Origin: Siphonodentalium dalli | Lineage: Eukaryota; Mollusca; Scaphopoda; Gadilida; Siphonodentaliidae | Direction: 5' to 3' | Assembly: GCA_032622095.1 (NCBI GenBank) | Contig: CP136064.1 | Span: 260,813,863 to 260,877,862 of the forward strand | Length of the DNA stretch: 64,000 nt | Shown here: in pieces, positions 29,680-51,067 of the stretch | Position numbering within the stretch: position 1 is the first letter of the stretch | Layout: each line of letters opens with the position of its first letter | Program-made: the position numbers and the translations under genes | Notes under the pieces: model-generated | Seen by the model: only the letters and a program-made list of their open reading frames with translations | The model's database searches: none | Told to the model about the DNA's origin: nothing

Positions 29680-29759
29680 TTAAGCTTCCCTATTTCTTTC
29701 AAACTATTCTCTAACATGCAAATCCATAACATGCAAATTTTCATTGTCTTCATTTAACA

Positions 29760-30065: not shown

Positions 30066-30198
30066 GTGAGTATTAGTCACAGACATAGATAATATCTATA
30101 TATATCCTTTGATCGGATAATGGTCTTATTGGATGAGCAAATTATATACACTTATGACTATTAACACCTTAGAGGGCGTTTCTTAGAGTATTTACATA

Positions 30199-30830: not shown

Positions 30831-31039
30831 TGCTTGTTTTATTTAGTATGATGAAATGGTGAGCCAATAATGAAATGTTCTCTCGATAACGACGGCCACA
30901 TTGATGTTGCCACAAAAACTGCTGGCACTAACAGAGAAAACATCTCCTGAATTTACGTTCACATGACCAGAGACTTGAAGTATTCTGTTATGTAGCATGC
31001 ATCAGCACTGTATGTCATCTATATATATCAAAGAGTAGG

Positions 31040-31195
31040 ATATGTCTGTCTTATATATGAGAGTCACCCATAGGGTGCCTCAAATATATAAGAGAATGCA
31101 TTGGCCTAACAATATTTACCTTGATCTTGTAAGCAGTGCATTCTCTTTTTATGTGAAGCTCCTATGGAAGACTCGCATATCTAAGAGAATGCGCC
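31040..31195. mobile_element. E2: E fragment (arrestin intron)
   Basis: Both hairpins in degraded form around aacaatatttaccttgatct; both termini absent. Confidence 0.7.
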
Positions 31196-31285
31196 ATACC
31201 AACAGACCCATTAACACATGTGTCTTTATGTGTTTATTACATGCCACCTCATCCTGGAATCCATGAATTAAAAAAAAAACGGAAC

Positions 31286-31563
31286 TACTGTAATGCTCTA
31301 AGTAATCGACCCCTTAACCACAGCAGAATTATGGGTAACTTTTCAGGATTTAGTCGGAAATATGGCATGTTGCATTCATTGGAAAGCTCTCAGTGAGAGC
31401 TTTCCGATGAATGGCAACAAGCCATATTTCCGACTAAATCCTGAAAAGTTACCCATAATTGTGAGAGCTTTCCAATGAATGGCAACAAGCCATATTTCCT
31501 ACTAAATCCTGAAAAGTTACCCATAATTCTGCTGTGGTTAAAGGTGTCGATTACTGTAAAGGG
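31286..31563. mobile_element. B7: B palindrome with a duplicated arm (arrestin intron)
   Basis: tactgtaatgctctaagtaa; after the first right arm (to acccataatt, 31460) a second partial arm starts at gtgagagctttccaatgaat. Confidence 0.82.
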
Positions 31564-31961
31564 CTTGTTTTGTCATGTGTGATAATGCTTTATTTTATTG
31601 TTCCGGCTTCATGGTTGAGGGACATGTCTTTGGACATCTACGGGATGCGTATGGAATGTATGTTCCACACAGATTTGTAAATATGGAACAACACGATCAC
31701 TGTAATTGTAGTAACAGGCTTGTAATAAATGTGTTTACGGACCCATTTTGATCCCTGAAGGCCTGAACTGGCGAGGAAGATGACACAAGCAATTATTACA
31801 GGGTACAATTTAACAGCTCCAAACCACCATAGGCCTTTCACACCAGGATGTTACTCCTATAAAATTTAAAATATGGTTGTAATGTAGAGTGAGAGAACCA
31901 TTTATTGTTCTATATACAGCGTCGGCAGGATGTCAGTTTTATCTCGCTGCTATAGTCTCTA
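31564..31961. other. intron sequence, nothing recognised
   Basis: No repeat shared with the rest of the window was seen. Confidence 0.4.
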
Positions 31962-31965
31962 TTAA

Positions 31966-32035
31966 CCCTTACATGACTGGAGTTTCCTGAAATTTTGCGA
32001 AGCCCTGTGTATTCTCTTATATATGCAAGTCTCGG
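31966..32035. mobile_element. E3: left-end E fragment
   Basis: TTAA 31962-31965, cccttacatgactggagttt, start of the first hairpin, then unrelated sequence. Confidence 0.7.
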
Positions 32036-32412
32036 AACTGTTCAAACATATCGCAATATATTTCTTCTGAAAGAATCGCGATACATCTGTAATCAGAACA
32101 GCTCCCTTAACAAATAAACCCCCTGGTGTTCAACTGACATACTTTGTTTTTCATTTTAAAATCATGCACCATTTTGTTTTGTTTATGGTCTTGGTGCCGT
32201 TGATGTTGAAATTGGCTAAATGAATATGCAGACTGAAACAATAAACATTTTCAATGAAATGCATGCATGTTTATTGGAATACCAGACTAATAATCTCTCT
32301 GTAGGTTGTATTGTTTGTGCTGTTAAGTCAGTTATTATCCCCTGCAAATAAAGTTTGGTGGGGCGTCCGTCCGTGATTATGTCTGTGCATCTGTTACAAC
32401 TTTGATGCTTAA

Positions 32413-32819
32413 AGGTACTCAATCCAATTTGATGGTCCTCATATAATCAGATTCCAACAACAACAACATTTATAGAATAGAAATGCCTCTTCAGTTATCA
32501 GAATTGATTAATTGCCCCAAAATAATGCTAACCACTGTCAACTATAGTATAAAATTGCCCGAAACGTGTTAATTAATCAACATGTTGTTCGATGAAATTT
32601 GGCCTTAATATCAACACAAAGCATCTTGATTTTAGACTTATCGATGTTCATCCGTAATTTTTCCGAAACCGTCGGCTCGTCAACTTTTTACTGGGCCACT
32701 AATAAGTCTCGATTGTGAATAATAATTTATTTTTAAAATTTATATCTAATAACTCTGAGCTTTGATAGGTGGGTTCCTTGACTCGAATCAAATATTTTTT
32801 ACACCCGAAAACAAATAAA
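32413..32819. mobile_element. G4: G element truncated by B8 (arrestin intron)
   Basis: TTAA 32409-32412, aggtactcaatccaatttga, ccttgactcgaatcaaatat, then B8 begins without the right TIR. Confidence 0.78.
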
Positions 32820-32926
32820 TAGAGCTTTCCGATGAATGGCAACAAGCCATGTTTCTGACTAAATCCTGAAAAGTTACCCATAATTCTGCTGTGGTTAAGG
32901 AGTCGATTATTTAGGGCATAATGTAT
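32820..32926. mobile_element. B8: right half of a B palindrome
   Basis: Begins at the centre (agagctttccgatgaatggc) and runs to tatttagggcataatgta. It directly joins the G4 element. Confidence 0.8.
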
Positions 32927-33386
32927 AACAGCAGTAATAGTTAGTTTTTATCAGTTTCTTAGCATGATAACATGAACAAATATCAACTGATTTTTTTTTT
33001 TTTTTGTATTTGCAACTCATTATTTAATCAACGATCTCTTGATCAAGTTCAAAAACAAGTTTGATCTTCCTACTTTATGTGCGATAACATGTACCAGTAT
33101 TAATTGTTGATATTTGGTATAATTTCACATATGGTTAAATTTATTTTTATTTTAAACCCAATTTAATTTTTCATATATCCACACCTTGCTTTAAAGACAC
33201 TGTCAAATAAAAAAAATAGAATATTTGCCCATGCAAGTAGAACTCTGACAAAGCATAGGCTATCTTGTGACTTCGGTTTTAGACAAGATTATTATACAGC
33301 ACTGTCAGCTGATATCTGTATTGAAATCTGTCAATAAAAATTGATCAACGATCATGCTAGCAGAAACACCTGAACAAAATTATGCC
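32927..33386. other. intron sequence, nothing recognised
   Basis: AT-rich; weak resemblance to P-type text (caacgatctcttgatcaagttc). Confidence 0.35.
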
Positions 33387-33602
33387 TACATTAATGCCCT
33401 AAATAATAGACTCCTTAACCACAGAAGAATTATGGGTAATTTTTCAGGATTTAGTCGGAAATATGGCTTGTTACCATTCAACAGAAGCTCTGACTGAGAG
33501 CTTTCCGATGAATGGCAACAAGCCATATTTCCGACTAAATCCTGAAAAATTACCCATAATTCTTCTGTGGTTAAGGAGTCTATTATTTAGGGCATTACTG
33601 TA
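33387..33602. mobile_element. B9: B palindrome (arrestin intron)
   Basis: tacattaatgccctaaataa ... ttagggcattactgta; centre gctctgactgagagc. Confidence 0.88.
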
Positions 33603-33700
33603 TTTTATCTTAATATTCTCCCTCCCTCCTCCCCTGGCTTTGAGCCAAAAAATGCGTAAACCAAGTACTAAAAATAAAATGCCTAAGATGTATGAATTAA

Positions 33701-34072
33701 AGGCCTGTTTAATTTTTGAGTCACCGATTATATTTTTTTATAGTGCCTTGATATACGGTTTTAATAACAATCTATGCCATGAAATATGTTTAAAATACTA
33801 TAATTCATCACCAATTGAAACATCTGCATCTCAGATGGTGCCCATAGAGAAACAGCTAAAATCATAGAAAGATTTCCCCAATTATGGCTCCCAGAATGCA
33901 ACAGAATTCAAACTAAAAATATATTTTCAATTGAAGGAGAATAACTCTATAACTTAGATATAGTGTTATTCCCCTTCCATTGAATAAAATGAAATGACCA
34001 CAGAACACAAGTCGATATCTCAACGAAAACAACATGTTCACAGTTTATTACACCGAATAAGTTGATAATACA
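33701..34072 (-). mobile_element. W3: W element, minus orientation (arrestin intron)
   Basis: ttaaaggcctgtttaatttt at left; interior matches the W consensus reversed (tatagtgccttgatatacgg, attatggctcccagaatgca, taactctata, gtttattacac). The right end is eroded into B10. Confidence 0.78.
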
Positions 34073-34074
34073 AT

Positions 34075-34112
34075 TAGTTAATTGGTCGATTAATTAGAGC
34101 ATTACTGTACTT
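34075..34112. mobile_element. B10: terminal B fragment
   Basis: Only ggtcgattaattagagcatt and actgta remain. Confidence 0.65.
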
Positions 34113-34189
34113 CATTACATTCTGCCTTGCTTTCTTCATGCAAAACAATTTGAAGAAAAACTGGTAAAATGTGGTAATTTCTATGACTT

Positions 34190-34301
34190 TAATAAGTCGA
34201 TACATGGCCATTACAATAAGAAATGAGAACTGGTTCATGCTCACGGAAGAAAGCCAATTTGAAGAAATGAACATTCATACTGAGTCCGTGCCTCTATAAA
34301 T
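34190..34301 (+). mobile_element. tRNA-derived SINE, 3' fragment
   Basis: Only the tail half is present: gtcgatacatggccatt, agaaatgagaactggttcat and gagtccgtgcctctataa. The hAT-like F1 element starts directly after it. Confidence 0.75.
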
Positions 34302-34306
34302 ATTAT

Positions 34307-34881
34307 CAGTGTCCGCGCTGGACTGAAAATTACTTTTGCCAAATAATTTGCCAAATGAAAATATTTTTTGCCAAACAATTTTAGCATTTGCCAAATGCTA
34401 TCCTGATAGTACCTCAAGTCTTATGTTTGGACACTCGCGGTTTGGACGACTTTTGATATCGATAGAAAAGCAGTTAGTTAATAATTAGTAACTCGCATCT
34501 CGATTGTGGTTTATCATACAACAATAAGCCAATCACTGAACAATACAATGGTACTCTGCTGCACCAGAAGGGCATATCACAAGAGGATTAGCTATGTAAA
34601 CACCACCACCACACTAAATAGTAGTAATCCCTCCAACCACCAGTACAAATGCTATGAGATTCACTGCATCTTAATAGAGGTGTTAACTTTTCCTAAACCT
34701 CATACAACTCCACCAATATAAATATGTTGTAAGAGTTTCCTGAAATGAATGGTATTGATTGACCAATATTTTTCAACATTCTTGAGGAACTAACAAGTGA
34801 CTTGCCAAATGAAAATATTTTTTGCCAAATGTGAATTATTTTTGCCATTGGCAAATTTGGCAAGTGGCAGCGCGAACCCTG
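34307..34881. mobile_element. F1: hAT-like non-autonomous element, 8-bp TSD
   Basis: Ends are CAGTGTCCGCGCTG and CAGCGCGAACCCTG, inverted. It is flanked by AATATTAT at 34299-34306 and 34882-34889, a perfect 8-bp duplication as made by hAT transposases. The interior has repeated ttgccaaatgaaaatatttt motifs and no transposase. Confidence 0.85.
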
Positions 34882-35041
34882 AATATTATATATATACACC
34901 AGTATCACTAATCGCATGGCCACAGATATAATTTCGTAGGAAGTGCATTGTGCTGTTCTAATATAATGTTAGATCCGTTCTATGTCAATATTCGAACCCA
35001 TGTTCAGACTGGTACTCTTCCAAACTCTTGGTGAAAAGGCT

Positions 35042-35313
35042 GCCTTTTAAGGATGTCTCCTTAGCCAAAGTGGTTAGGATGTGGATACAATCATCACAGT
35101 CTGGCCTTGACAAGGTTGGCACTGGTTCAAACCCTGACATGGGTGAAAATCGGAACTGAATTTCAAGCTTTATTTGAGTTGAGAGACATCTCAATGTTCC
35201 ATTCAGATCGATACATGGCCATTTCGATGAGATATGAGAATTTGTTCACGCTCACTTAAGTAAGCAAATTTGAAGCAATGGACACTCATACTGAGTCCGT
35301 GCGTCCTTAAATC
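35042..35313 (+). mobile_element. tRNA-derived SINE, copy 2 (arrestin intron)
   Basis: The A box fits better here (tagccaaagtggttagg); the B box is ctggttcaaaccc. The body and tail are as in copy 1 (gagtccgtgcgtcc). Confidence 0.8.
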
Positions 35314-35505
35314 TTATATGTATTTATGGACCTTTGCTATCATGACGATATGAAGATACCTCAGGCTGATATCTCAGCTGATATCAAACTAACCAAGTAA
35401 TAATCTCGATATATCGCATCTCATTAAATATAATAAACTTGGTTATGCGAAAAATGGATGTCATTGCTCATCTCATGAAGACCTTGAAGCATCATTATTA
35501 AGTTT

Positions 35506-35721
35506 TACAGTAAAGCCCTAGTAATCGACCTCTTAACCACAGCAGAATTATGGGTAACTTTTCAGGATTTAGTCGGAAATATGGCTTGTTGCCATTCATC
35601 TGAAAGCTCTCAGGGAGAGCTTTCCGATAAATGGCAACAAGCCATATTTCCGACTAAATCCTGAAAAGTTACCCATAATTCTGCTGTGGTTAAGAGGTCG
35701 ATTACTTTGGGCATTACTGTA
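35506..35721. mobile_element. B11: B palindrome (arrestin intron)
   Basis: tacagtaaagccctagtaat ... tttgggcattactgta; centre gctctcagggagagc. Confidence 0.88.
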
Positions 35722-35937
35722 CATGGTCAGCTTTTAGTCAATATTCACACAGAAAGTTAGAGTAGACAGGAGTCAATGGTCCTTCAGCATCCTGTCACCG
35801 TACAGAGAGGGATTAATTAACAGCTATTGATGTGTTTTCACCGACCTTATTGCTCATTTTCTCAGCCATCAAGGCAGAATTGCTTCATTTATTGCTTCTA
35901 AATGATGATTGACGTGATCCTCCTCAACCCTGTTTAA

Positions 35938-36079
35938 CCCCTTCTTTACTAAATGGATTACCCATTCAGTCATAAAAGTATACATTGGAATGGTGTATTA
36001 TTCATGTGGAGGGGTGTTGAGGAAATGTAAGCAGATGACAGAGAGAGGAAATAATAATACAAGTGCAGATGGATTTCTA
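35938..36079. mobile_element. Z4: left half of a Z element abutting E4
   Basis: TTAA 35934-35937; cccttctttactaaatggat ... atgtggaggggtgttgagga; stops at the TTAA that opens E4. Confidence 0.75.
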
Positions 36080-36083
36080 TTAA

Positions 36084-36570
36084 CCCTTCCATGACTGGAG
36101 CTTCCTGAAACTTTGCGAAAACCCATTCTCTTATATATGTTAGTCTCCCATAGGCAGGGTCTGCGCTGGACCGTAATTTACTTTTGCCAAATAATTTGCC
36201 AAATGAAAATATTTTTTGCAAAATCAAGAGGACTAGTAATCCATCCAACCATCAGTACTAATGCTATGAGATTAACTGCTTCTTAATAGATGTGTTATCT
36301 TACCCTAAACCTTATAAAACACCACTAATATAATTAAGATGTAAGAGTTTCCTGAAATTAATGGTATTGATTGACCAATATTTTTCAAATTGCTTGAAGA
36401 ATTAAAAAGTGACTTGCCAAATGAATATATTTTTTGCCAAATGTGAATTATTTTTGCCATTGGCAAATTTGGCAAGTGGCAGCGCGAACCCTGCCCATAG
36501 GGAGCCTTGGATATATAAGAAAATACATGTGCCTCAAAATATTGACCTTGACCTTGTAAGTCATGCAACT
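36084..36570. mobile_element. E4: E element interrupted by F2, right-truncated
   Basis: TTAA 36080-36083, cccttccatgactggagctt, hairpin split in its loop by F2 with CCCATAGG duplication, then aaatattgaccttgaccttg and stop. Confidence 0.85.
36155..36493. mobile_element. F2: hAT-like element inserted inside element E4
   Basis: Terminal CAGGGTCTGCGCTG and CAGCGCGAACCCTG, with 8-bp TSD CCCATAGG at 36147-36154 and 36494-36501. CCCATAGG is the loop of the E-type hairpin (tctCCCATAGGgag), so the empty site is known from other E copies. Its body shares the right ~170 bp and other segments with F1. Confidence 0.9.
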
Positions 36571-36885
36571 ATGTGAACTGATACTTATGCATCTTGAACA
36601 AATCTTAATATCTTATATTTACGTACATATAATGTTTCTTCCACTTCTCCGATAGAGCAACAAATGTCACACACTCTGTGCTAATTTGGTCATTAACCAA
36701 CTAACTGCATTGGCTGTCATTTTTAGCCATCATATTCCATTAACCACAAAGATCCCAGACATCACCGGACATGGTCAGACATTAACGACTAATAGACTAC
36801 ATGATTATTCATCATGTTGGGTTTTGGCAGTGTGCCAACACCGTACTCTCCGAACTTAATCATTTTTGCTTTTTGTTTTTTTCAG

Positions 36886-37032
36886 GGATTTGGCAGTGGA
36901 ACTTCCATTCACATTAACCCATCCTAAGCCATTAGACTCACCGCCTCCATCCAGACCATCTAGTGCAGCTCCACCTAGTGGAGAAAACTATGACACGCCC
37001 ATTGACACAAATCTCATACAGTTAGAAACAAG
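36886..37032 (+). CDS. ARRB: beta-arrestin, penultimate coding exon with clathrin box
   Basis: The acceptor gttttttttcag ends at 36885 and the donor GTAGGT begins at 37033. The first base completes the split glycine codon, after which the exon reads [15 protein letters not shown], the last C-domain strand and its characteristic T(H/M)PKP turn. A Pro/Ser-rich linker ([15 protein letters not shown]) follows, then [18 protein letters not shown] fits the clathrin-box consensus L-hydrophobic-x-hydrophobic-D/E and sits where beta-arrestins carry LIELD or LIEFE. Visual arrestins usually lack this box, so beta-arrestin is favoured. The exon ends in AG, which joins T of the next exon to make Ser. Confidence 0.94.
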
Positions 37033-38092
37033 GTAGGTTGATTTTTTCTGTAGTCCAAAAATTAAAGATAAATGTTCCACTTCCAGTAAGAAACAGTGTC
37101 TTTGATTGGTCAGAGAGCCGCGCAGCATATCCCATGTTTACATTTAGAGCCATTAACATATTGAAACCAAGACAACCATTTCATCGCCTCTCCTTTGCCT
37201 GCTTTATCATAACATCATTTACGGAAGAATGTCAAATTTCCATGAATGACCAGAACTATCGGCAGAACATATTATATTTGTTATTTTCGCGACTCGGTTG
37301 AACATAGGCTCCAAGCTGTCAATGTCACACCATGTTACCGTCAATCCACCACAATAACTTATAATGTTCTGATTCGTGTTGATATTCTATTGAACTTTGA
37401 AGGCTACTCTTATACAACAATTGATTTTATAATGCACTCGATATCATGGATACAAAAAGAGGTTTAGCAAGGGATGTCTAACTGTCTTAATATAGTGTTG
37501 TTCGGAAAAAGTTCTCGAAAGTTGCTTGTTAAGTTTTCTAACTTTTGTTTTAACTCGTTTCACCCGTACAAACATAAATTATTTTAATATAAAATAACAA
37601 CTACGAATTCTAGCAACTTAGTTTTAATCTGGAAAGACAGGTAAACTTATTTAGCTTCAGTGTGCATATCATGCAACATATTACAATATATATATAATAC
37701 ATGTACAATATACATATTTATGTATCATGAATATCCCATATTTTATCATGATTACTCTTTGATATACAGGCATATTAATCCCTACAAGAAATTGATTGAC
37801 ATTCAGACTGCAATATTAATAAACAAATCTTTCACTTTCAAAACAAATTTATTATAAAAAAAACATTATAATGGGTGGGTGGGAGGGTGCTGCACACACT
37901 TTTGAAGCTGAACGTAGAATGATCGCTATATCTACCGTCTCTCCACAATACCTTAGCAGTCCATGCTTAAGCCATCCAAAATATTATACGAATACTCCTC
38001 ATGCGTAATCATCCTCCACAAATCACCGAAATAATTCTTCATTGAACTTCAATAAATTAATTTATTTATGATAGTTTGTTTTATACAAATAT

Positions 38093-38708
38093 AATTTTCG
38101 ATGCCAAGATCACATTATATACCACATATTCCATATTATATACCATTTGGAAGAGGAACCAAAAATATATATATATTCTACCAGAATACACAACACCTGT
38201 GGCCTAGGAGTGTCCACCAAGTGACAGAGATTCTCAGATTCACACCGAAACTTCTCCCGTTATTTACCCCAGAATGCATCAAAATTCACAACTAAGAGAT
38301 AAAGTTGTTCCCCTTCCATAGAGAATAATAGACTGGGAGTTCAGACTAGATCTAAATTAAGCATAGAACACATGTCGTTACCTTGACAAAAACACAGATT
38401 ATTGACCAGATATGTTTTGAAGCTTCCTAATATGACATACATTATGCCCTAAGTAATCGACCTCTTAACCAAAGCAGAATTATGGGTAACTTTTCAGGAT
38501 TTAGTCGGAAATATGGCTTGTTGCCATTCATCGGAAAGCTCTCGCCGAGAGCTTTCCAATGAATGGCAACAAGCCATATTTCCGACTAAATCTGACTAAA
38601 TCCTGAAAAGTTACCCATAATTCTGCTTTGGTTAAGAGGTCGATTACTTAGGGCATTACTGTATGTTGTATCTAATGTGATCTAGAGATTCGAAAATTAA
38701 GTGAGCCT
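38093..38708. mobile_element. W4: W element with B12 inside (arrestin intron)
   Basis: aattttcgatgccaagatca, attatataccatttggaaga ... B12 ... agattcgaaaattaagtgag and cctTTAA (38709-38712). Confidence 0.75.
38438..38663. mobile_element. B12: B palindrome nested in W4
   Basis: tacattatgccctaagtaat ... gggcattactgta; centre gctctcgccgagagc. The right arm has a short duplication (gactaaatctgactaaatc). Both sides are W sequence. Confidence 0.88.
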
Positions 38709-38953
38709 TTAATGCAGTTGATTTCACATGATTTAAGCTCCTCATGTGATATTCACAATCAGCAATCGAATACGGACAACCAACCATTGAATAGGCATAT
38801 CTGGACCTCTACACAAAAGCAATAATGTACACAACAAAACACTTTTTAGATGTTCTAACTAACAGCAAACCATGTCTAAAAGTGATAAAAATTCACACAG
38901 ACGATGATCAATATAGTTGGCGCGAATAAAGCTTGACTGGATATTCCAACTTT

Positions 38954-39256
38954 GGATTAAACATCCAGAGGGCACGAACAGGTCAACACCTAATGTGACC
39001 TTCATTCTTACCGTGGATTAAACATCCAGAGGGCACGAACAGGTCAACACCTAATGTGACCTTCATTCTTACCGTGGATTAAACATCCAGAGGGCACGAA
39101 CAGGTCAACACCTAATGTGACCTTCATTCTTACCGTGGATTAAACATCCAGAGGGCACGAACAGGTCAACACCTAATGTGACCTTCATTCTTACCGTGGA
39201 TTAAACATCCAGAGGGCACGAACAGGTCAACACCTAACGTGACCTTCATTCTTACC
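38954..39256. repeat. 61-bp tandem array, 5 copies, in the last arrestin intron
   Basis: Units begin ggattaaacatccagagggc and end accttcattcttaccgt. The copies are almost identical, so the array is young or homogenised. Confidence 0.93.
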
Positions 39257-39322
39257 TTCATCATGGATAGTATCTTTCTCATATATAAAAAAGCATGTCT
39301 ATTATTCAAAGAAATTATTTAA

Positions 39323-39575
39323 ACCTTCCATGACTGGAGCTTCCTGAAACTTTGCGAAAACCCTGTGCTAATACATTCATTATATATACGAGTCACCCAT
39401 AGGGAGACTTGCATATTTAAGAGAATACATTGGCCTAACATTATTTACCTTGACGTTGTAAGCCATGCATTCTCTTATATATACGAGGCTCCCTATGGAA
39501 GACTCACATATATAAAAGAATGCACTGGTACAGGATATTTAATGATGCACCAGCGCAGCTCCTGCCATGAAAAGG
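39323..39575. mobile_element. E5: complete E element (last arrestin intron)
   Basis: TTAA 39319-39322 and 39576-39579; accttccatgactggagctt ... gcagctcctgccatgaaaagg; two hairpins around aacattatttaccttgacgt. Confidence 0.85.
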
Positions 39576-39576
39576 T

Positions 39577-39915
39577 TAAACACAACGGTATAAATCAGTA
39601 CGTTCAATATATAAGATTTAGACATGACGGTATAAATCAATACATTCTATACGGTATAAATCAAATCAATACATTCAATATATAAGCTTTAGACATAACG
39701 GTATAAATTAATACGTTCAATATATAAGCTTTAGACATAACGGTATAAATTAATACGTTCAATATATAAGCTTTAGACATAACAGTCTAAATCAATACAT
39801 TCAATATATAAGCTTTACACATAACAGTCTAAATCAATACATTTAATATATAAGATTTAAACATAACGGTCTAAATCAATACGTTCAATATATAAGCTTT
39901 AGACTTAACGGAAAC
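39577..39915. repeat. ~42-bp AT-rich tandem array in the last arrestin intron
   Basis: About eight units of gacataacggtataaatca + atacgttcaatatataagct + tta, more diverged than the neighbouring 61-bp array. It begins at the right end of element E5. Confidence 0.88.
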
Positions 39916-40048
39916 TGACTGTTTTTACTTTCTATTACATTTTATCCAATAATGTACTAAAATTTTAAACTACATTCTCGATTTAACATGTTTGGGGGTG
40001 TAGCAACTATTAATATACCACAATTTGCAAATCGTTTTTGTTGTTTAA

Positions 40049-40372
40049 CCCTTTACCCAACAGAACGGCCCTGTGCCAATGCATTCTCTTATATATGCGA
40101 GTCGACCATAGGTCGCCTCGCATATATAAGAGAATGCATTGGCTTAACACATATTAAAAATGATAAAATTGTCAAAGAATGTAGAAAAATATTATAAAAA
40201 TTGTTTAAAAATGTAAGAAAAAATTATAAAATTGTTAAAGAATGTAAGAAAAAATGGTAAAAAGTGTTAAAAAAAGATTTTTTTAGGCCAATGCATTCTC
40301 TTATATATTTTTTTTACAATTTTAATAATTTATTCTTATATTCTTAACATACTTATTTTGTAGGTTAAAGGG
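40049..40372. mobile_element. C4: chimeric C/D element beside the arrestin acceptor
   Basis: The left end is C (CCCTTTACCCAACAGAACGG) with one hairpin. After a second hairpin that is cut at cttatatat, the sequence switches to the D-type tract (ttttttacaattttaataat ... cttattttgtaggtt) and closes aaaggg. TTAA at 40045-40048 and 40373-40376. Confidence 0.82.
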
Positions 40373-40374
40373 TT

Positions 40375-40532
40375 AAAACTTTGATAACCACTTCATCAAT
40401 TACATTATTCTTTTTCAGTGGTGACCAGTTTCATGTACATAAAGATGTTTATGTTCTTTAAAACTTTGATAAACACTTCATCAATTACATGTTTCTTTTT
40501 CAGTGGTGATCAGTTTCATGTACATAAAGATG
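40375..40532 (+). repeat. tandem duplication of the last intron-exon boundary of beta-arrestin
   Basis: Two 73-bp copies (40375-40447 and 40460-40532) are separated by 12 bp. They differ at only a handful of positions, for example gacc versus gatc. The left copy begins immediately at the right end of the TTAA element C4 (TTAA 40373-40376). The right copy also has TTAA at its matching start (40458-40461), so the target TTAA was part of the duplicated unit. Confidence 0.85.
40419..40461 (+). other. duplicated splice acceptor and truncated alternative terminal exon of beta-arrestin
   Basis: Seen: the 73 bp at 40375-40447 reappear at 40460-40532 with only a few mismatches, covering the polypyrimidine tract, the AG and the first 29 coding bases. 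Using the AG at 40417-40418 the frame reads S-GDQFHVHKDVYVL and hits TAA at 40459-40461. Such a transcript would keep the clathrin box from the previous exon but lose FxxFxxxR. The 85-bp offset is not a multiple of three, so the two copies cannot be read through as one exon. Whether the upstream site is used is unknown; it may be a non-functional copy. Confidence 0.6.
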
Positions 40533-40603
40533 ATGATTTTATATTTGAGGATTTCGCGAGACTTCGTCTGAAAGGGCAGGACGAGGATGATACGGAAGCA
40601 TGA
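40504..40603 (+). CDS. ARRB: beta-arrestin, terminal coding exon with AP2-binding motif
   Basis: The acceptor tttctttttcag ends at 40503. With AG from the previous exon the frame continues S-GDQFHVHKDDDFIFEDFARLRLKGQDEDDTEA and stops at TGA 40601-40603. FEDFARLR matches the FxxFxxxR motif that binds the AP2 beta-appendage; the same residues, with the basic R and K, are held in the inactive arrestin fold. The acidic tail is typical of beta-arrestins. A second, nearly identical acceptor and exon start lies 85 bp upstream (40419). The coding part is 100 nt; 3' UTR follows. Confidence 0.94.
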
Positions 40604-40678
40604 CAACTTGACGTTTGTCAATGTTTTGTTCTGAATGTGTTGATATGGACACTTTGATGCTCAATGTTACACTCAGCC

Positions 40679-40955
40679 TTGTATAGATAGCTGGGACTAT
40701 CAACCAAATCAACTGAGTCTGTTGTTTCACATGTTTCATCTTCACTGTAATCCTAATTTCTTCATGTTTTAATCATGTGACTGATGTCAGCGGTCAGAAG
40801 AAACATGTAATATCCTTGTATAGATAGCTGGGACTATCAACCAAACCACCTGAGTCTTGTTTAACATGTTGATTTAACTATAATCCTAAAGTGGAAATTC
40901 TTCATGTTTTAATCATGTTACTGATGTCAGAGGTCATAGGTCAGGAGAAGCATGT
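40679..40955 (+). repeat. two-copy ~138-bp tandem duplication in the beta-arrestin 3' UTR
   Basis: Both copies contain tgtatagatagctgggacta, cctaa...ttcttcatgttttaatcatgt and actgatgtcag followed by aggtca-like sequence. The starts are about 138 bp apart (40679 and 40817). A third weaker piece with ataatcatgtgactga lies near 41000. Confidence 0.75.
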
Positions 40956-41040
40956 TTGTTTTCTTGCTGATGGAATCTTACTCTAATTTCTCTATCTTAT
41001 AATCATGTGACTGAATCAGAATTATTTTGTGAGTGCTTAA

Positions 41041-41163
41041 CACTGTCATGACAGGAGCTGCGCTGGTGCAGCATTAAATATCCTGTGCCAGTGCATTCTC
41101 TTATATTGTGAGTCTCCCATAGGGAGCCTCGCATATATAAGAGAATGCACTGGTTTACAAGGG
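41041..41163. mobile_element. E6: single-hairpin E element abutting a Z element
   Basis: TTAA 41037-41040, cactgtcatgacaggagctg, one E hairpin, tacaaggg, TTAA 41164-41167. That TTAA is also the left flank of the Z element at 41168. Confidence 0.8.
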
Positions 41164-41167
41164 TTAA

Positions 41168-41423
41168 CGTTCTCTATACTAAACACTCATTTAACGGTTA
41201 CCCTTCTCTATACTAAACACTCATTAAAGGGTTATTTAACCTTCTCTATACTAAACACTCATTTACGAGTAGTTCTGATCAATGAATTGGAATCCTTCTG
41301 TATTTGTATTATCTTTTCATCTGCCTCTCCTCTGCTCATTGTTTTCTGGACACCGCTCCAAATGAATGACAGACCATTCTAATATATATTTTTATATCTG
41401 GCTGAAAGAATCCATTTAATGGG
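41168..41423. mobile_element. Z5: Z element with triplicated terminus
   Basis: TTAA 41164-41167 (shared with E6) and 41424-41427. The left end ttctctatactaaacactca occurs three times ~30-45 bp apart (41170, 41206, 41253). Confidence 0.78.
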
Positions 41424-41427
41424 TTAA

Positions 41428-42279
41428 TTGCCAATCTCAGAATATATATCAGAATGTTTTCCCAATTGTTCAATTAATCTTACAATGAGCAAGTGTAGTT
41501 CTGATATCAAATAGAAGGCAAATTATGTTACTGCTGAATGTCTGTTCATTTATCAAGAACAATTGTCATTGACTGCGTCTAGCACAAAGAATTGACAGCA
41601 ATTCATCAACATAGTTGGTTGCCATGGAGATCTGATGTGGCTTTAACTTGATTTGCCTTTGTGCAGTCTTCGTATTTTATTTTGCATCAATGACAGTAAT
41701 TTTCTGCAGTGCATCAGCTGAGTGCATGCATTATTTTGTTCATCAAACTTATGAACAGGATATCACTAATTAATTTCTTTGATTGCTAGAGCATGCCTTA
41801 TATTTTCACGAACCCATGCTTTATTTTTTCAGCAAATCAAAGAACACAGAATAAATGAATTGAATTGAAATAATTCTTTTATGAGATAACTGCACAGTTA
41901 ATTAGTTGGTTTACAAACCTGCAAACAACTTTTTTTTACCAAAAATGCCAAAAAATAATATAAAAAGTTCAATTTTTTTTTTTTGCCCATTGCGTTGAGT
42001 TTGTATAAGACATCTCACGAAACTGTTCTATCAGTCATAATAGTATGCGATATCAAGAATAATTGAAATACCAATGTGTTGATTTTATTTATATCAAATT
42101 AATCCTGCTTCTGCCAAAAAGACTTTTCAATTTTAAAATTCAAGGCATATTTTTGTTTTGGTTGTTGATTGTCAATCATACATATTTTCTGTCAGGTCAG
42201 TTTGGTGTCCGCTCAATGCTTTTGTTATCTCGATCTTAATTTATAAATTAAATTATAACTGATGCACTTCTCGACATAT
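41428..42279. other. intergenic or distal 3' UTR, nothing recognised
   Basis: AT-rich, holds the AATAAA at 41850 and T runs near 41930-41980. Confidence 0.4.
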
Positions 42280-42475
42280 AAAGTGATGCCCTAAATAATA
42301 GACTCCTTAACCACAGCAGAATTTAGTCGGAAATATGGCTTGTTTCCATTCATTGGAAAGCTCTCACTGAGAGCTTTCCGATGAATGGCAACATGCCATA
42401 TTTCTGACTAAATCCTGAAAAATTACCCATAATTCTGCTGTGGTTAAAGAGTCGATTATTTAGGGCATTACTGTA
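42280..42475. mobile_element. B13: B palindrome with an eroded left end
   Basis: gtgatgccctaaataatag ... ttagggcattactgta. Confidence 0.82.
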
Positions 42476-42681
42476 TATTCATCTCTCTATCATTCTCTCG
42501 CTTTTAGTCTCTTTATAGAACTCGTATTCATTTACTATTGTATTTCTCATATTTGACAGATCTGTAACTTATAGTTTATTAATTAAGAAACTAATCATTC
42601 ACACCTAATTTGTATTCACTTCTGTTATATTTATTACAAATTTGGGTCAATTGCTTTGTCCCAGGTTCATACCTCATTTAA

Positions 42682-42933
42682 CCCTTTCTATACTAAATGG
42701 ATTCTCCCACTCAGTTATAAAAGTATACAATGGAATATCCTATTATTCATCTGGAGGGGTTTTCACGAAAAATAAGCAGACGACAGATAATAAAAGTGCG
42801 GAAGAAGTCCTATGCATTGGAGGGAAATGTTCAGATAATAAGTTCATCAAACGACTAACTGTCATTTTAACTTATTATCTTAATATTTCCTATGGGGTTA
42901 CTGCTCGTCAATGAGTATTTAGTAAAGAAAGGG
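42682..42933. mobile_element. Z6: complete Z element
   Basis: TTAA 42678-42681 and 42934-42937; ccctttctatactaaatgga ... gtatttagtaaagaaaggg. Confidence 0.87.
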
Positions 42934-43182
42934 TTAATTTAACATTGATAACTTTTTGTTTGATTATAGTCATTGCGGATGATGATACTTCATGATTTTT
43001 TCTTACATTATGTTTAGAATTGGTAGAATTCTTTTCAAAAAATTGCTAACAGCCTTTCTCTTGTCTTGGCTCCGTGCCGGGCTCTCATTTACCACAATCT
43101 TCCTCTTGTCTTGGCTCCATGCCCTGGACATATTTATCATACTAATCTTCAACGTCATGCATTTATTATCTGTTTCTAGGGG

Positions 43183-43606
43183 CAAGCCTTGAAATAGCAG
43201 AATGAGGTCCCCAGAGGATAAATTTAATGTTGCTACCCCACACAAGGCTAGCATCACTATATTCACCCTCTGGGGACAACATTCTTCTTAGGTCTCATCT
43301 TCTGGGAAGTATCTATAATCTCAAATTAACATTGTTTTAGTTACTTTTTCCCTTCTCTTGAGTTTCTACATGTTTTTCCCCTAATTTGCAAATATTAAAA
43401 TGCATAATCGAGGTGACTAATGGGTGAACATCACCAACTTCAATCTGATGATCCTAGGTCTCTCATAGCAGTTGAGGCCTAAGTAGAGAATGAAGTCTCC
43501 AGAGGGTGAATTTGGTGATTCTAGCCTGCTGTGTTGGATGGCGTCACTAAATTCACCCTCTGTGGACCTCATTCTGCAAATATCAGAACCACTATTTCAA
43601 GGCTTG
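43183..43606. mobile_element. A9: long A element with 8-bp TSD
   Basis: TIR caagccttgaaatag...ctatttcaaggcttg with TSD TCTAGGGG (43175-43182) / TCTAGGGA (43607-43614), one mismatch. Two hairpins and a centre with cttcaatctgat. Confidence 0.85.
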
Positions 43607-43797
43607 TCTAGGGAATAATTCAATATGTACATCAAAATAGGGCATATGACTACATTCTTAATACTTATTGAAATCCACCATGAAAGGCCTTTGAAACAAT
43701 TATGGGTATTCAAATTACATCATCTCATAGGTCATGAAAAAAATACTGGAGATCATGGACATGCAATACAATATAACCCTAGACTTCACATAATTAA

Positions 43798-44151
43798 AGA
43801 TGGTCTATCTCTTCCTATAACAAGTTCTATGTAGTTTCTGTGGTATAAAATAATAGATATGAGTCAAAGACACCTGTCTGGAAATATTTCTATCAACTAA
43901 TTTTGATTTTATTACGAATTTTCTGGTATAATATACATACAATAAATTTGGGACATTTTACGTCTCGTGTTCGTTCGGAGCGTACCAAGCAGGAGAACTC
44001 TAACTAAAAAATGTCCCATTTGATTATCGCATTATACAAGAAAATATTGATATAAAATAAATATTAATTTGCATTTCCAGACATGTGTCTTCATATTTAT
44101 TATTTTATACCCCGGAAACTATATAACACGTAGGAAGAGATAGACTATCTA
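43798..44151. mobile_element. U2: U element
   Basis: TTAA 43794-43797; agatggtctatctcttccta ... taggaagagatagactatct; interior ctcgtgttcgttcggagcgt. The right TTAA is mutated (ctataag). Confidence 0.83.
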
Positions 44152-44313
44152 TAAGAATTGATCTATTTGCCATTATACAGGATGATTAATTGATTAAAAT
44201 GCAGCTGTTTGTAGACTGGGGGGGGGGGGAATTGTCAAATTAAATATTGTGTCAATAAGAAAAGACTAGGTACTCTCCAGCCAGCCAGATTACAGTATTA
44301 ATACTGGTTCAAA

Positions 44314-44768
44314 TACAGTAATGCCCTAAATAATCGACTCCTTAACCACAGCAGAATTATGGGTGATTTTTCAGGATTTACTTGGAAATATGACTTGTTG
44401 CCATTCATCGGAAAGCTCTCCCCCGACTAAATCCTGAAACGTTACCCATAATTCTGCTGTGGTTAACCCTTTACCCAACAGAACGGCCCTGTGCCAATGC
44501 ATTCTCTTATATAGGTCGCCTCGCATATATAAGAGAATGCATTGGCTTAACACATTAAAAATTCTAAAATTGTTAAAGAATGAAAGAAAAAATGGTAAAA
44601 AGTTTTTAAAAAAGGAGGTCAAGGAGCCGGTTCCAATGATGTCCATATTTGTATGGTTCTATTGAGACAGACCGAAGATATTTTAGGCTGTTGCAGCTTT
44701 ATTTGGCCGGTTTTGGCCGTTTTGTTGGGTAAAGGGTTAAGGAGTCGATTACTTAGAGCATTACATTA
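44314..44768. mobile_element. B14: B palindrome interrupted by C5
   Basis: tacagtaatgccctaaataa; the right arm is broken at gctgtggTTAA by C5 (44467-44736) and resumes TTAAggagtcgattacttag. Confidence 0.9.
44467..44736. mobile_element. C5: internally deleted C element inside B14
   Basis: CCCTTTACCCAACAGAACGG ... ttttgttgggtaaaggg, TTAA 44463-44466 and 44737-44740. One hairpin with a shortened loop; the second hairpin is missing. Confidence 0.9.
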
Positions 44769-44967
44769 TATTCATCGCAATCTAGTAGACTTCATCTTCG
44801 AGTTTTTATCAGTCAACGATAATTATTACGGATTATTCTTTGCATCTTGTTGCTTTTATAATTACTGCTAAATACTATGATTCTCACAAATGTTTACTCC
44901 GCCAGACATGCACTCCATATTTGGAAGCCGCATCGTCTTAGAAAATGAAAAGTGAATGGGAGATTAA

Positions 44968-45211
44968 CCCTTTACCCAACAAACCGGCCAAAACCGGCCA
45001 AATAAAGCTTCAACAGCCTAAAATATCTTCGGTCTGTCTCAATAGAACCATACAAATATGGATATCATTGGAACCGGCTCCTTGACCACATTGTGATAGT
45101 TACAGTTATGCCCTGTGCCAATGCATTCTCTTATATATGCGAGGCGACCTATGGTCGACTCGCATATATAAGAGAATGCATTGGCACAGGGCCGTTCTGT
45201 TGGGTAAAGGG
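44968..45211. mobile_element. C6: short C element
   Basis: cccaacaaaccggccaaaac ... one hairpin ... ccgttctgttgggtaaaggg, TTAA 44964-44967 and 45212-45215. Confidence 0.9.
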
Positions 45212-45293
45212 TTAAGAGATGTAGATCTGAAATGATCACCGTCGGCTTTTCAAAGAGACTGCAGTCAATGAATCCAAGTTTTATGACAATTAA

Positions 45294-45713
45294 AGATATT
45301 CAATCTGATTAAACGCTCCTAAATCACTATTTCTTTGGCTTTGGGGGTAAAAAATATTTGATTCGAGTCGAGGAACCCACCCATAAAAGCTCAGAGTGAT
45401 CAGATATCGATTTTTGAAGTTTGTTAATTTTTGAAGACAAAATTGAGGGTGTAAGATGGATAACTCTAAAATCAAGTGGTTATTATTGTTAATAGTAACC
45501 ACTTGATTTTCGAGTTATCCATCTTATAACTGCAATTTGTCCGTTTGAGCACGTGGTTCTGGTCCACATCTCCAAAAATTAACAAACTTTAAAAATTTAT
45601 ATCTGATCACTCTTGAGCTTTGGTGGGTGGGTTCCTCGACTCGAATAAAATATTTTTTACCCCCAAAGCCAAAGAAATAGTAATTTAGGAGCGTCTAATA
45701 TGATTCAGTACCT
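45294..45713. mobile_element. G5: fully palindromic G element
   Basis: TTAA 45290-45293 and 45714-45717. The two ~200-bp halves are reverse complements meeting at gtggttattattgttaatag/taaccac: ctatttctttggctttgggg pairs with ccccaaagccaaagaaatag. Confidence 0.85.
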
Positions 45714-45805
45714 TTAAGATTGCTCTTTCAGCTAATATTTCCCCCTGATAGGAGTACAGTCCTCATTATACCTGTAACAGTGTTTCAAAGGTCTTTAATG
45801 CCATT

Positions 45806-46023
45806 TACAGTAATGCTCTAAATAATCGACTCCTTAACCACAGAATAATTATGGGTAATTTTTTCAGGATTTAGCTGGAAATATGGCTTGTTGCCATTCA
45901 TCGGAAAGCTCTCACTGAGAGATTTCCGATGAATGCCAACAAGCCATATTTCCGACTATATCCTGAAAAATTACCCATAATTCTGCTGTGGTTAAGGAGT
46001 CAATTATTTAGAGCATTACTGTA
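45806..46023. mobile_element. B15: B palindrome
   Basis: tacagtaatgctctaaataa ... gagcattactgta; centre gctctcactgagaga. Confidence 0.9.
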
Positions 46024-46388
46024 TCTTTTAACATCCGGTGAGAACCCAAGTAATTGATATTTATTTGCTTTTATAGGATTTATTTATCATATGCTAATTA
46101 GTATTCATTTGTCAGTTTATATTTCCTTTTTTCATTTATATCTCCTGTAATTTGTATAGATCCATATATATATGTATAAGTTTTGAAGAAAGTCGACGTA
46201 TAAAAATGTATACACTATGCCAGACTTGTGATTTTACTCTGTTGGATATAAGATGCTCGTAAATGAACTAAGAATATTATGCGCAAATATAGTCTGCGCT
46301 GAATTTAGTAAATTATTATAGTCGTTTAATATACAATTATACACGCTTCATTCTAATCCAGCATAAAATATTTTTGGTGAGAAAAATG

Positions 46389-46853
46389 AACTAAGATCTA
46401 TGGGAGGTAACTCTAGGAACTAATATCTATGAGAGATAACTCTATAGGTTTTACAATCTGTGGGAGCCAACATTACTGCAAACTCCAGGCAGAATTATCT
46501 CCCATCGCTCCGCTGAGATACCACTGCCATAATGACATTAATTGGTAAGGAATTCTTACGTGTTTTTAGTTCTTATGTTTTAGGATTAAAATTGTCTATC
46601 TCAGTTCATATTGTTCTTATCAATACCGAAAGAATTACCATTATTGCAAACTTTATAAAAAATTTGGTGGTCAAAACAAGATAATAGGTGACTAAATAGT
46701 AGTAAATACAGTTCCGCGACGATATGTAAAAATAGATTTATCGTCGGCAAAGTACACTCATTGTGGCAGTGATATATCGCAGCGATAGCATAGAGGGCGC
46801 TGTATGGAGTTTGACATTACTGTAGGAACTAAGATCTATGGGAGGTAACTCTA
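46389..46853. repeat. direct repeats flanking ~410 bp
   Basis: aactaagatctatgggaggt + aactcta occurs at 46389 and 46828, and a diverged copy follows the first (aactaatatctatgagagat). Between them is ordinary AT-rich sequence. Confidence 0.5.
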
Positions 46854-47124
46854 TAAGAACTAGAGAGTTCAGACTTAAAGTTGCTTAATATATTGAGAGC
46901 TGATAACATCTCATGCAGTACATTTTATGGTGTTTCAGAAACATGTCCCTACCCATATTGTATTATTGTCATTTTTTGTAAATATGTGACCTAAAAACAT
47001 CCAAGCCTGGATTAAGTGCGTCTAGCATGGCGGGCCAGCATAACCAAATCCCCCTCTGTGGACCTTAATTATTAAATAGTGACCAGACTCCCGGAAAACT
47101 GAACCCAAAAATCATACAAATTGT

Positions 47125-47505
47125 AAATATTGAGGGTTCCAAGCAGTGTTAGTAAAAAACATAACAATTCAAAATATTTCAGGCTGTGTTTAAAAACATA
47201 CAAATTCAAAATATTTCAGGCTGTGTTTAAAAACATACAAATTCAAAATATTCAGGGTTCCAAGCAGTGTTAGTAAAAAACATAACAATTCAAAATATTC
47301 AGGGTTCCAAGCAGTGTTAGTGAAAAACATAACAATTCAAAATATTCAGGGTTCCAAGCAGTGTTAGTAAAAAACATAACAATTCAAAATATTCAGGGTT
47401 CCAAGCAGTGTTAGTAAAAAACATAACAATTCAAAATATTCAGGGTTCCAAGCAGTGTTAGTAAAAAACATAACAATTCAAAATATTCAGGGTTCCAGGC
47501 CGTGT
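47125..47505. repeat. 47-bp tandem array with a ~37-bp variant at its start
   Basis: Six units of gggttccaagcagtgttagt + aaaaaacataacaattcaaa + atattca, preceded by two shorter units (ctgtgtttaaaaacatacaa...tttcagg). Confidence 0.92.
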
Positions 47506-47622
47506 TAGTCACAAAATTGATCTTATAGTTTGTTTCTAAAGAAAAATCCAAAAAGTTCCACCTTGAAATTTATGGTTATTTTTATTTTTTGTTTCAATGA
47601 ATTAGAGGGACACGGAGATAAA

Positions 47623-47704
47623 TTAGCATTAATTTCCCATTAAGATTGCTCTGTTGGTATTTATTAGCATTAATTTCCCATTAAGATTGCTCTGTTGGTA
47701 TTTT
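47623..47704. repeat. two-copy 41-bp tandem repeat
   Basis: ttagcattaatttcccatta followed by agattgctctgttggtattt, repeated without visible change. Confidence 0.9.
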
Positions 47705-47815
47705 AACTTGATAAAAACAAAAACTACTCTTATAAAATACTTTTTTCATAAGAAAAGAGAGGTATACAAAATTGTAATGTTTACACACATGAATATTCAG
47801 TGGAAGAATTATTAA

Positions 47816-48045
47816 CCCTTTCATGACGGGAACTTCTTAAAATTTTTGTTAAAACCCTGTGCCAATGCATTCTCCTATATATGCGAGTCTCCCATAGAGA
47901 TCCTCGCATATACAAGAAATACATTGGTCTAACAATATTTACCATGACCTTGTAAGCCAGTGCAATCTCTCATACATGCGAGGCTCCCTATGGGAGACTT
48001 GCATATATAAGAGAATGCACCATCATAGCTCTCGTCATGAAAGGG
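47816..48045. mobile_element. E7: complete E element
   Basis: TTAA 47812-47815 and 48046-48049; ccctttcatgacgggaactt ... ctctcgtcatgaaaggg; two hairpins. Confidence 0.87.
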
Positions 48046-48219
48046 TTAAGGATGTTGTTGTAATCGACGGTTTTGAGCTCTGAATATATCTTTACACCCA
48101 TCCTCATGGGATTACTCTTTAAGATCTGAAACTTTACTCATGCCGTACAGTTTGTTCTCCACTTATGCATTTAGCAATCTGCCAACAGCTTATAAGTGAA
48201 ATGTAAATGCGTTTCTTAA

Positions 48220-48468
48220 AGGTACTCAATCCGATCAGACGCTCCTAAATTATTGTTTCTTTGGCTTCAGGGGTAAAAAATATTTGATTCGAGTCGAGGA
48301 ACCTACCCATCAAAGCTCAAGAGTGATCAGATATAAATTATTGAAGTTTGTTATTTCAATGGTTTCTGGGCCAGAAGCACAAGGTCAAACGGACGGTCTT
48401 GTAGATAAAGATGGATAACTCTAAAATCAAGTGGTAATAATAGGAGCATCTGATCGGATTGAGTACCT
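48220..48468. mobile_element. G6: G element abutting E8
   Basis: TTAA 48216-48219; aggtactcaatccgatcaga ... tgatcggattgagtacct; TTAA 48469-48472 shared with E8. Confidence 0.88.
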
Positions 48469-48472
48469 TTAA

Positions 48473-48712
48473 CCCTTTCACCCTTTCATGACAACATCTG
48501 CATTGGTGCAGCATTAAAGATCCTGTGCCAGTGCATTCTCTTATATATACGAGCCTCCCACGAGGATCCTGGTATATATAAGAGAATGCAATGGCTTACA
48601 AGGTGAAGGTAAATATTGTTAGGCCAATGCATTCTCTTAAATATGTGAGGCGCCCTATGAGAATGCATTGGCACATTTCGCAAAATTTCAGGAAGCTCCA
48701 GTCATTGAAGGG
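48473..48712. mobile_element. E8: E element abutting G6
   Basis: Left TTAA 48469-48472 is shared with the right end of G6. The left end is doubled (ccctttcaccctttcatgac). Two hairpins, the right end cagtcattgaaggg, TTAA 48713-48716. Confidence 0.85.
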
Positions 48713-48716
48713 TTAA

Positions 48717-49505
48717 GGTTTAAATAGACAGTAGTTAACTGTTTTGAGTAGTGTACAGTTTTTCTCCTCGAGTGAGATGTGGAGAATTATACTTACGAGG
48801 CGTTAGCCGAGTTAAAATAATCCTCGCATCTCACAAGATGAGATAAACGGAACGATATTCAGAACTGTTGTTTTTATTATATCTTCTATACTAGTTTGTT
48901 ATCGCTCAGACCACAATGAAATACACGGTCAGACGTTATGTGTTCTTAAGCAACAACATCACCAGCAATAAGGCGCAAGGATACCGAATGACGCAAAAAT
49001 ATGATGTACTGCTGAGAGTAGAGTAACATCTTGAGAGTGGAATAACATGTTCTGTCTTCTAGGCATGGGGATACGATTTATATTTTGACGTAAAAAGTTG
49101 ATGAAAATATAATAAAAGAGATTTTCTGATCATTCATATAGACCCCTACAGTGTATTGATATGAGGTATTGATATGGTGTATTGATGAGAACATAAATCA
49201 ATCCATAAAAAGATTATATTTTTACACAATATGGGAAAAAAGTTGTAGGATGAGTTCGTAAGCCACACTAATTACCTAAACGCATTCTCAAAAAAGGTCT
49301 TCATAAAAAGCTTCAGGTCATATGCAGCATTATTCCACTGTCCTTACCACAACACAAATCCCATCTTTCATGACCAATGGCTTGGGTACACCATTTGCCA
49401 GGGTAGGATTTGTGATCAATATCACAATCTTTGGACACTTTCACTTTGTCATCCTCATCCCGTCTCTTTGGACACTAAGCATGCTATAATGTTATCATGT
49501 AAGAT
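48717..49505. other. no gene recognised
   Basis: A stem gagatgtggagaattatact...cctcgcatctcac (48770-48830) is imperfect. Otherwise unremarkable. Confidence 0.4.
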
Positions 49506-49509
49506 GATA

Positions 49510-49752
49510 ACCCTTTCATGACAGGGGGCTGCGCTGGTGCATGATTAAAGATCATGTGACAGTGCATTCTTTTATATATGCGAGCCTCGGTTATATAAGA
49601 GAATGCACTGGCTTACAAGGTGAAAGTAAACATTATTAGGCCAATGTGTTCTCTTATATATGCAAGGCTCCCTATGGGAGACTCGCATATATAAGAGAAT
49701 GCATTGGCACAGGGTTTTCGCAAAATTTCAGGATTCTCCAGTCATGGAAGGG
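49510..49752. mobile_element. E9: E element
   Basis: Left flank ATAA (mutated TTAA, 49506-49509), ccctttcatgacagggggct; right ctccagtcatggaaggg and TTAA 49753-49756. Two hairpins around aacattattagg. Confidence 0.84.
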
Positions 49753-50112
49753 TTAATTAAATACATGGTAGATATGCGTTCATGCTAATCCATTGTTGGA
49801 GAATTGTCTGTGTGGTATACTTGCTATTTTATTTCATTTCAACTTTCAATACTCTTTACTCTTAGTTTTTCCCATGTTGTATTAAATTATTTATCCTTTT
49901 TACAAATATTATTTTATAGAATAATATTGATACCAGACTAAAATATTTTATAAAAATTTAGATCAATTGGCTTTAACTTGCTCTACTTTCATGTTTAAAT
50001 CAATTTGATTGAACCTCGATGTTAAAATCATTGCATTTTTACAGGAATTAAATATTTCAATGTGATTTGCATATCTCTACTTACAGATTACAATGGATAG
50101 AGGATGTGACAC

Positions 50113-50948: not shown

Positions 50949-51067
50949 TATGACACTTCATCAAAGCAATAAATTGTTATTATTTACAACTTGTTTCGAT
51001 TGTATGGCAACAATGATGATCATGAATTTGAAGAGCATAACTCAAGAAATAATCTTCATATCTTTAA

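Follow-up and report, generated by a model that had tools for sequence, protein, structure and literature searches.

A doubled splice acceptor at the last beta-arrestin exon of the scaphopod Siphonodentalium dalli, probably one allele on an unpurged haplotig

Results and discussion

The window carries the 3' part of a beta-arrestin gene

The window, by which we mean the whole stretch that was analysed, comprises 64,000 nucleotides of Siphonodentalium dalli DNA (GCA_032622095.1, contig CP136064.1, positions 260,813,863 to 260,877,862 of the forward strand). The assembly amounts to 2.23 Gb in 9 contigs; the chromosome holding the window is referred to as C4, and window-frame positions above 64000 lie beyond the window. 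Exons were searched with a human beta-arrestin-2 sequence and are named roughly by the human start residue. Three exons in the window match this query in order (residues 311-333, 335-378 and 383-403), and the remaining matches, with E values of 2.4 and up, are noise. Of the exons found for the beta-arrestin gene, just the last three lie in the window. The features are listed in Table 1.

Table 1. Features of the beta-arrestin locus (window positions unless marked C4)
Feature	Position	Strand	Basis
Run of exactly 100 N, taken as scaffold gap	20667..20766	.	N count; only N run in window
Portion of the 109,436-bp contig inside the window, probable alternate haplotype	20767..64000	+	Inverted match to C4:260563.6k-260681.2k
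Beta-arrestin exon 'YSDPSQKENLGIVVSYKVKVKLIMGFGSG', identical in complete gene	29980..30067	+	Exon search; exon end approximate
Penultimate exon with LIQLE	36887..37032	+	Exon search, comparison with other copy
TTAA-flanked MITE, ends CCCTTT...AAAGGG, at left edge of copy 1	40049..40372	.	Sequence inspection
Copy 1: intron end, polypyrimidine tract, AG, 29 coding bases 40419-40447	40373..40457	+	Repeat search, TRF, translation
Copy 2: intron end, AG 40502-40503, full last coding exon 40504-40603 with FEDFARLR	40458..40603	+	Repeat search, translation
Second run of exactly 100 N	Window-frame 130203-130302 = C4:260944065-260944164	.	N count beyond window
Exon 162 acceptor array, 25 x 48 bp	C4:260692987-260694189 (reverse-complement frame 5812-7014)	-	Repeat search, TRF

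Each of the last three exons occurs a second time on the minus strand of C4, at a distance of about 178-200 kb. In the penultimate exon the two copies show one difference in 145 bases and the same translation over 48 codons. Among the best candidates scored, exons for residues 18-306, including residues 123-162, matched only on the minus strand, and the window copy had no match before residue ~307 and hence no complete N-domain; therefore the complete gene lies there (about C4:260730.4k to 260654.8k), and the window contains its 3' part. The exon 263-306 is single copy by DNA search. Neither gene copy yielded an exon for residues 1-17.

In a PDB search with the joined exon peptides of the complete gene, beta-arrestins 2 and 1 were the best hits (E from 1.4e-88), followed by cone arrestin (8.4e-56) and visual arrestin (1.3e-51), among the best 60 of 66 matches. 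By this sequence similarity, the gene is closest to the beta-arrestins and not to the visual or cone arrestins. The joined exons of the complete gene scored 61.2 bits against Pfam Arrestin_C (PF02752; cut-off 27.7), and the three window exons alone scored 20.1 bits, below the cut-off.

The acceptor of the last exon is doubled

A repeat search revealed two 83-nt copies near the start of the last exon (40373-40455 and 40458-40540), which are 92% alike at a spacing of 85; TRF described the same duplication with a period of 85, 1.9 copies and 94% matches. The clean core of 74 bp (40373-40446 versus 40458-40531) contains four mismatches. The acceptor AGs lie at 40417-40418 in copy 1 and at 40502-40503 in copy 2. 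The 29 coding bases that follow (40419-40447 versus 40504-40532) are identical except at 40425, the sole coding mismatch between the copies (GAC/GAT), which is synonymous as read by eye from the codon.

Joining 37032 to 40504 gives a peptide ending ...LIQLETSGDQFHVHKDDDFIFEDFARLRLKGQDEDDTEA, with the TGA at 40601-40603 and the normal tail. This frame carries both LIQLE, the clathrin box, and FEDFARLR, the AP2 motif FxxFxxxR. Joining 37032 to 40419 gives instead ...LIQLETSGDQFHVHKDVYVL: the frame of copy 1 runs on as VYVL to a TAA (40459-40461) that sits inside copy 2. The predicted product of the upstream acceptor lacks 23 residues, gains four (VYVL), and ends KDVYVL.

The first-pass annotation had described this arrangement correctly. 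Its statement that the polypyrimidine tract, the AG and the first 29 coding bases are duplicated 85 bp upstream was confirmed by the repeat search, TRF and base comparison. Its reading of the frame from the upstream AG, through to KDVYVL and the TAA, agrees with the translation and has the right coordinates. The proposed retention of the clathrin box and loss of FxxFxxxR were likewise found in the translation, where LIQLE is kept and FEDFARLR lost.

Further repeats were seen nearby. A second tandem duplication, of about 140 bp by eye, lies in the 3' untranslated region (window 40680-40955), where the other copy has an extra piece, and the last intron contains a long inverted repeat (window ~38475-38660), parts of which match many other places in the window. 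A search of Rfam at gathering cut-offs gave no match within the window.

The exons lie on a separate contig with an inverted counterpart

The two 100-N runs enclose a contig of 109,436 bp (C4:260834629-260944064) that carries the arrestin exons and whose first base, 20767, directly follows the first gap. Homology to the region of the complete gene begins at this base, within a tandem array, and the main chain starts at 20982. From there to window-frame 102476 we counted 1,134 mismatches in 75,841 aligned bases (1.5%; a few blocks overlap), together with many large insertions. Homology blocks in the same direction extend to window-frame 125310 of the contig (20767-130202). Its last ~4.9 kb (125310-130202) have no partner in the counterpart region down to 260550001, and a 600-base sample near its right end matched repeats only. 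The counterpart (C4:260550001-260700000) is free of N. Neither of two samples taken beyond the contig, nor one from the contig to its left, had a comparable partner.

The exons are thus found on a separate, gap-bounded contig with homology over nearly its whole length at haplotype-like divergence. Because it is bounded by 100-N runs and matches, inverted and at ~1.5% divergence, an N-free stretch containing the complete gene, the contig is best read as an unpurged haplotig and the duplication as one allele. This is the pattern known as false heterotype duplication, in which a divergent haplotype enters the assembly as an additional locus, generally set off by a gap, and produces a false gene gain (PMC9516828, in extract). 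As there, a divergent copy separated by gaps would create an apparent extra gene; the call made here uses gaps and homology, where read depth and k-mers would be further criteria.

Alternatively, a true inverted segmental duplication could have left a truncated 3' fragment about 178-200 kb from the complete gene and on the opposite strand, which would make no arrestin. Inverted homology on one chromosome would be expected from such an event, as would the presence of the last three exons only, with residues 18-306 matching solely on the other strand. However, both ends of the contig are marked by 100 N, which fit better as assembly gaps, the homology sets in directly behind the gap, within a tandem array, and a divergence of ~1.5% with many insertions is as between haplotypes. 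We therefore regard a segmental duplication as distinctly improbable.

Copy 1 is broken in the complete gene

At the matching place the complete gene has two unit starts (C4:260655917 and C4:260654983). The first reads TTAAAACTTTGATAAACACTTCATCAATTACATTA and is followed by a MITE-like inverted repeat (CCAAGCC...GGCTTGG). The remnant of copy 1 ends ...AATTACATTA, cut after ACATTA and before its AG, and continues with CCAAGCC...; its acceptor and exon bases are gone. The second unit start leads via TTTTCTTTTTCAG into a last exon that is identical over 100 bases. Because copy 1 is interrupted after ACATTA, the complete gene has a single usable acceptor for the last exon, and a second one is not common to both assembled copies.

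The differences between copies 1 and 2 within the window, and the differently broken copy 1 on the other contig, rule out a sequence-quality artefact as the source of the duplication.

The TTAA-flanked element at the left edge of copy 1 (Table 1) is presumably piggyBac-like. In the other gene copy, an element sharing its 3' half occupies the same TTAA and likewise borders copy 1 on the left. The 15-base stretch 40447-40461, whose last four bases are the TTAA of copy 2, matches 40034-40048, which closes with the TTAA at 40045-40048, at 13 of 15 positions; among the 561 TTAA contexts of the window, only 40034-40048 reaches at least 13/15. Copies 1 and 2 differ at 4 of 74 positions where 1.1 would be expected at the allelic rate (Poisson 0.026), and at 6 of 89 when the 15-bp flank is included (Poisson 0.0025). 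Since this divergence exceeds the allelic expectation, the duplication may have arisen before the two alleles did, with a sound acceptor retained since. The simplest order of events, to which the divergence lends weak support, would be duplication, followed by insertion of the element, with copy 1 decaying in the other allele thereafter. Together with the 13/15 flank match, the divergence suggests that the element inserted after the duplication, at a site now filled in both gene copies, but precise excision of an element from copy 2, or independent events, would account for these observations equally well.

Other junctions of the gene are duplicated as well

Tandem arrays with a period of at least 20 are common in the window (29 merged arrays, 15.7% of its length), and the last exon is not the only exon of the gene with a copied boundary. 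Exon 18 of the complete gene is preceded, 79 bp upstream, by another acceptor with its exon start (C4:260729800-260731000), and exon 235 by another acceptor 61 bp upstream (about C4:260684543-260684604; reverse-complement frame 15397-15458). Exon 162 is preceded by 25 acceptor units at an exact spacing of 48 bp (TRF: 25.0 copies, 97%). Each unit consists of the last 20 intron bases and the first 28 bases of the exon, and all are in frame and free of stops. The donor of exon 162 is tandemly copied too, as a 56-bp unit in 2.4 copies (locus L015, about 2804-2937).

The predicted consequences of using an upstream acceptor differ between these exons: a stop for exon 18, a frameshift and stop for exon 235, and in-frame insertions of 16 amino acids for exon 162. 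Among 24 units of the exon 162 array we found six types of variant, of which two are synonymous, four are not and none is a stop; the possible single changes stand at 33:100:11 in the same order. These counts give no sign that the open frame of the array is under selection at the protein level.

A junction was scored as duplicated when a second copy with at least 22/26 bases lay within 100 bp. Counting each junction of the two gene copies once, duplication affects 4 of the 11 acceptors and 1 of the 10 donors; for the complete copy alone the figure is 3 of 11 acceptors. Of 4,000 random positions within 45 kb of the gene, 294 (7.4%) scored by the same criterion; three further stretches gave 228, 382 and 257 of 4,000 each (5.7-9.6%). 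The binomial probabilities, both post hoc, are 0.0025-0.016 for 4/11 and 0.022-0.080 for 3/11. The excess of acceptor duplications in this gene is suggestive, as a post hoc observation.

The mixed outcomes look like indiscriminate duplication tolerated by splicing and not like isoform design. A reading in which acceptor duplications recurrently diversify the arrestin, with the exon 162 array inserting 0-24 x NSVRLAIRKLNVLIYR and the last-exon duplication toggling the AP2 motif to give an allele-dependent set of proteins, appears very improbable to us.

Choice between the two acceptors and the predicted truncated product

Depending on the acceptor, the last intron is 3,386 or 3,471 bp long. At -20 to -5, both tracts contain 12 pyrimidines in 16 positions. 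Two rules make opposite predictions for such a pair. Classically, the upstream of two competing 3' sites is preferred across the intron (PMC9225289, in extract, citing Reed and Maniatis). Under exon definition, when the flanking introns exceed 200-250 nt, preference goes to the sites closest across the exon, as found for human internal exons (PMC9225289, in extract). Given the long intron and the equal pyrimidine content, acceptor 40504 should dominate, as judged by analogy from human internal exons to the terminal exon of another animal.

The equal tracts and the classical rule favouring the upstream acceptor also mean that the window allele could make the truncated product in quantity. If the upstream acceptor won, the allele would yield arrestin mostly without the AP2 motif, and heterozygotes would show altered endocytosis, with no adaptive role for the duplication. 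The 12/16 pyrimidines in both tracts and the intron-proximity rule (PMC9225289, in extract) are consistent with such an allele-specific loss of function. Against it stand the intron lengths, which fall in the range of exon definition, for which the reverse preference was observed (extract of PMC9225289), and the fact that copy 1 offers just 29 shared exon bases. We hold this outcome to be unlikely.

As to the protein, the claim that Arg and Phe contacts of the tail hold the inactive state is in accord with extracts of two reports. In beta-arrestin-2, the C-tail is kept in place by Arg394 of the polar core and by the three-element contact that strand XX makes (PMC12331092, in extract). In p44, a C-terminally truncated splice form of visual arrestin that is pre-activated, the last 35 residues of the bovine protein are replaced by one Ala (PMC7331637, in extract). 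The predicted 40419 product is p44-like, as the C-tail with the polar-core Arg is absent and the chain ends KDVYVL. In both cases alternative splicing at the 3' end would yield a protein without the C-tail, which maintains the inactive state. They differ in that here 23 residues would be replaced by VYVL, and in that p44 is an expressed isoform of visual arrestin, whereas the present variant is predicted from the genomic sequence, in one of two assembled copies.

Another reading of the doubled acceptor, after the first-pass annotation, is a regulated beta-arrestin isoform, endocytosis-defective or open and analogous to p44. The frame and the stop are as predicted for it, and loss of the tail would remove the Arg and strand XX contacts (PMC12331092, in extract), for which p44 (PMC7331637, in extract) is a precedent. 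Decay needs an exon junction downstream of the stop, and this stop would lie in the last exon with no such junction to trigger it. Yet the doubled acceptor is absent from the other copy, three further acceptors of the gene are duplicated with unrelated outcomes, and under the exon-centric rule a long intron makes the downstream acceptor the favoured one (PMC9225289, in extract). A regulated isoform is not supported, and we judge it highly improbable. As two near-identical acceptors would compete for one donor, the arrangement resembles tandem alternative 3' splice acceptors. Unlike in the NAGNAG-type shift, a known class of tandem acceptors, the second acceptor here belongs to an 85-bp tandem copy and comes with a polypyrimidine tract of its own. 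In the listed titles and abstract beginnings of the literature on duplicated acceptors and arrestin splicing, nothing on this case was found, which is no proof of absence.

Most probably, the last-exon duplication is an allele on an unpurged haplotig, a by-product of tandem duplication that is mostly bypassed by splicing. A tandem duplication of ~85 bp has taken in the 3' end of the last intron together with the first bases of the last beta-arrestin exon. The haplotig in the window would carry the doubled acceptor, and the other haplotype would be the assembled complete gene with one working acceptor, its copy 1 having been interrupted by a MITE-like element and rearranged. The source would be a regional process of tandem duplication that has also affected the gene at three further acceptors and a donor; such duplications may persist since use of the most downstream acceptor still produces the normal mRNA.

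For the first-pass annotation this means that the frame, the stop, the motif loss and the chemistry stand, and that a fixed splicing device is not supported. The gene had been credited with an isoform-making acceptor; the window copy is a 3' fragment on a probable alternate haplotype, and the complete gene has one acceptor. The other copy, which is without the doubled acceptor, rules it out as a fixed feature of the gene.

An assembly artefact, in which an allele is placed as a second locus, can thus make an ordinary heterozygous duplication look like a splicing innovation. Should the acceptors be in use, one animal's two alleles would constitute a natural test of the function of the beta-arrestin AP2 motif, and the 25-copy array one of how the spliceosome chooses among near-identical acceptors.

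Duplicated junctions outside the arrestin gene

As controls, we inspected 11 myosin-head loci (of 85 matches) and four arrestin-domain loci (of 21). A duplication across the match start was found in 0 of these 15, not all match starts being exon starts. One control locus (L006) has duplications ending 21 bases before the match start and another (L050) has one downstream. In two myosin loci, L055 (C4:288891502-288891705) and L057 (C4:291684522-291684719), a 67-bp duplication spans the exon end and the donor. As this pair shows a donor-spanning duplication, the process is not confined to the arrestin gene. The two loci are ~95-97% alike and lie in opposite orientation on a single chromosome, so that they could represent a further haplotype pair or else a genuine duplication. 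At C4:274.2-275.5 Mb, matches to myosin-head exons are numerous in both orientations, several of them with an internal TAG, as if a cluster had expanded or partly decayed there.
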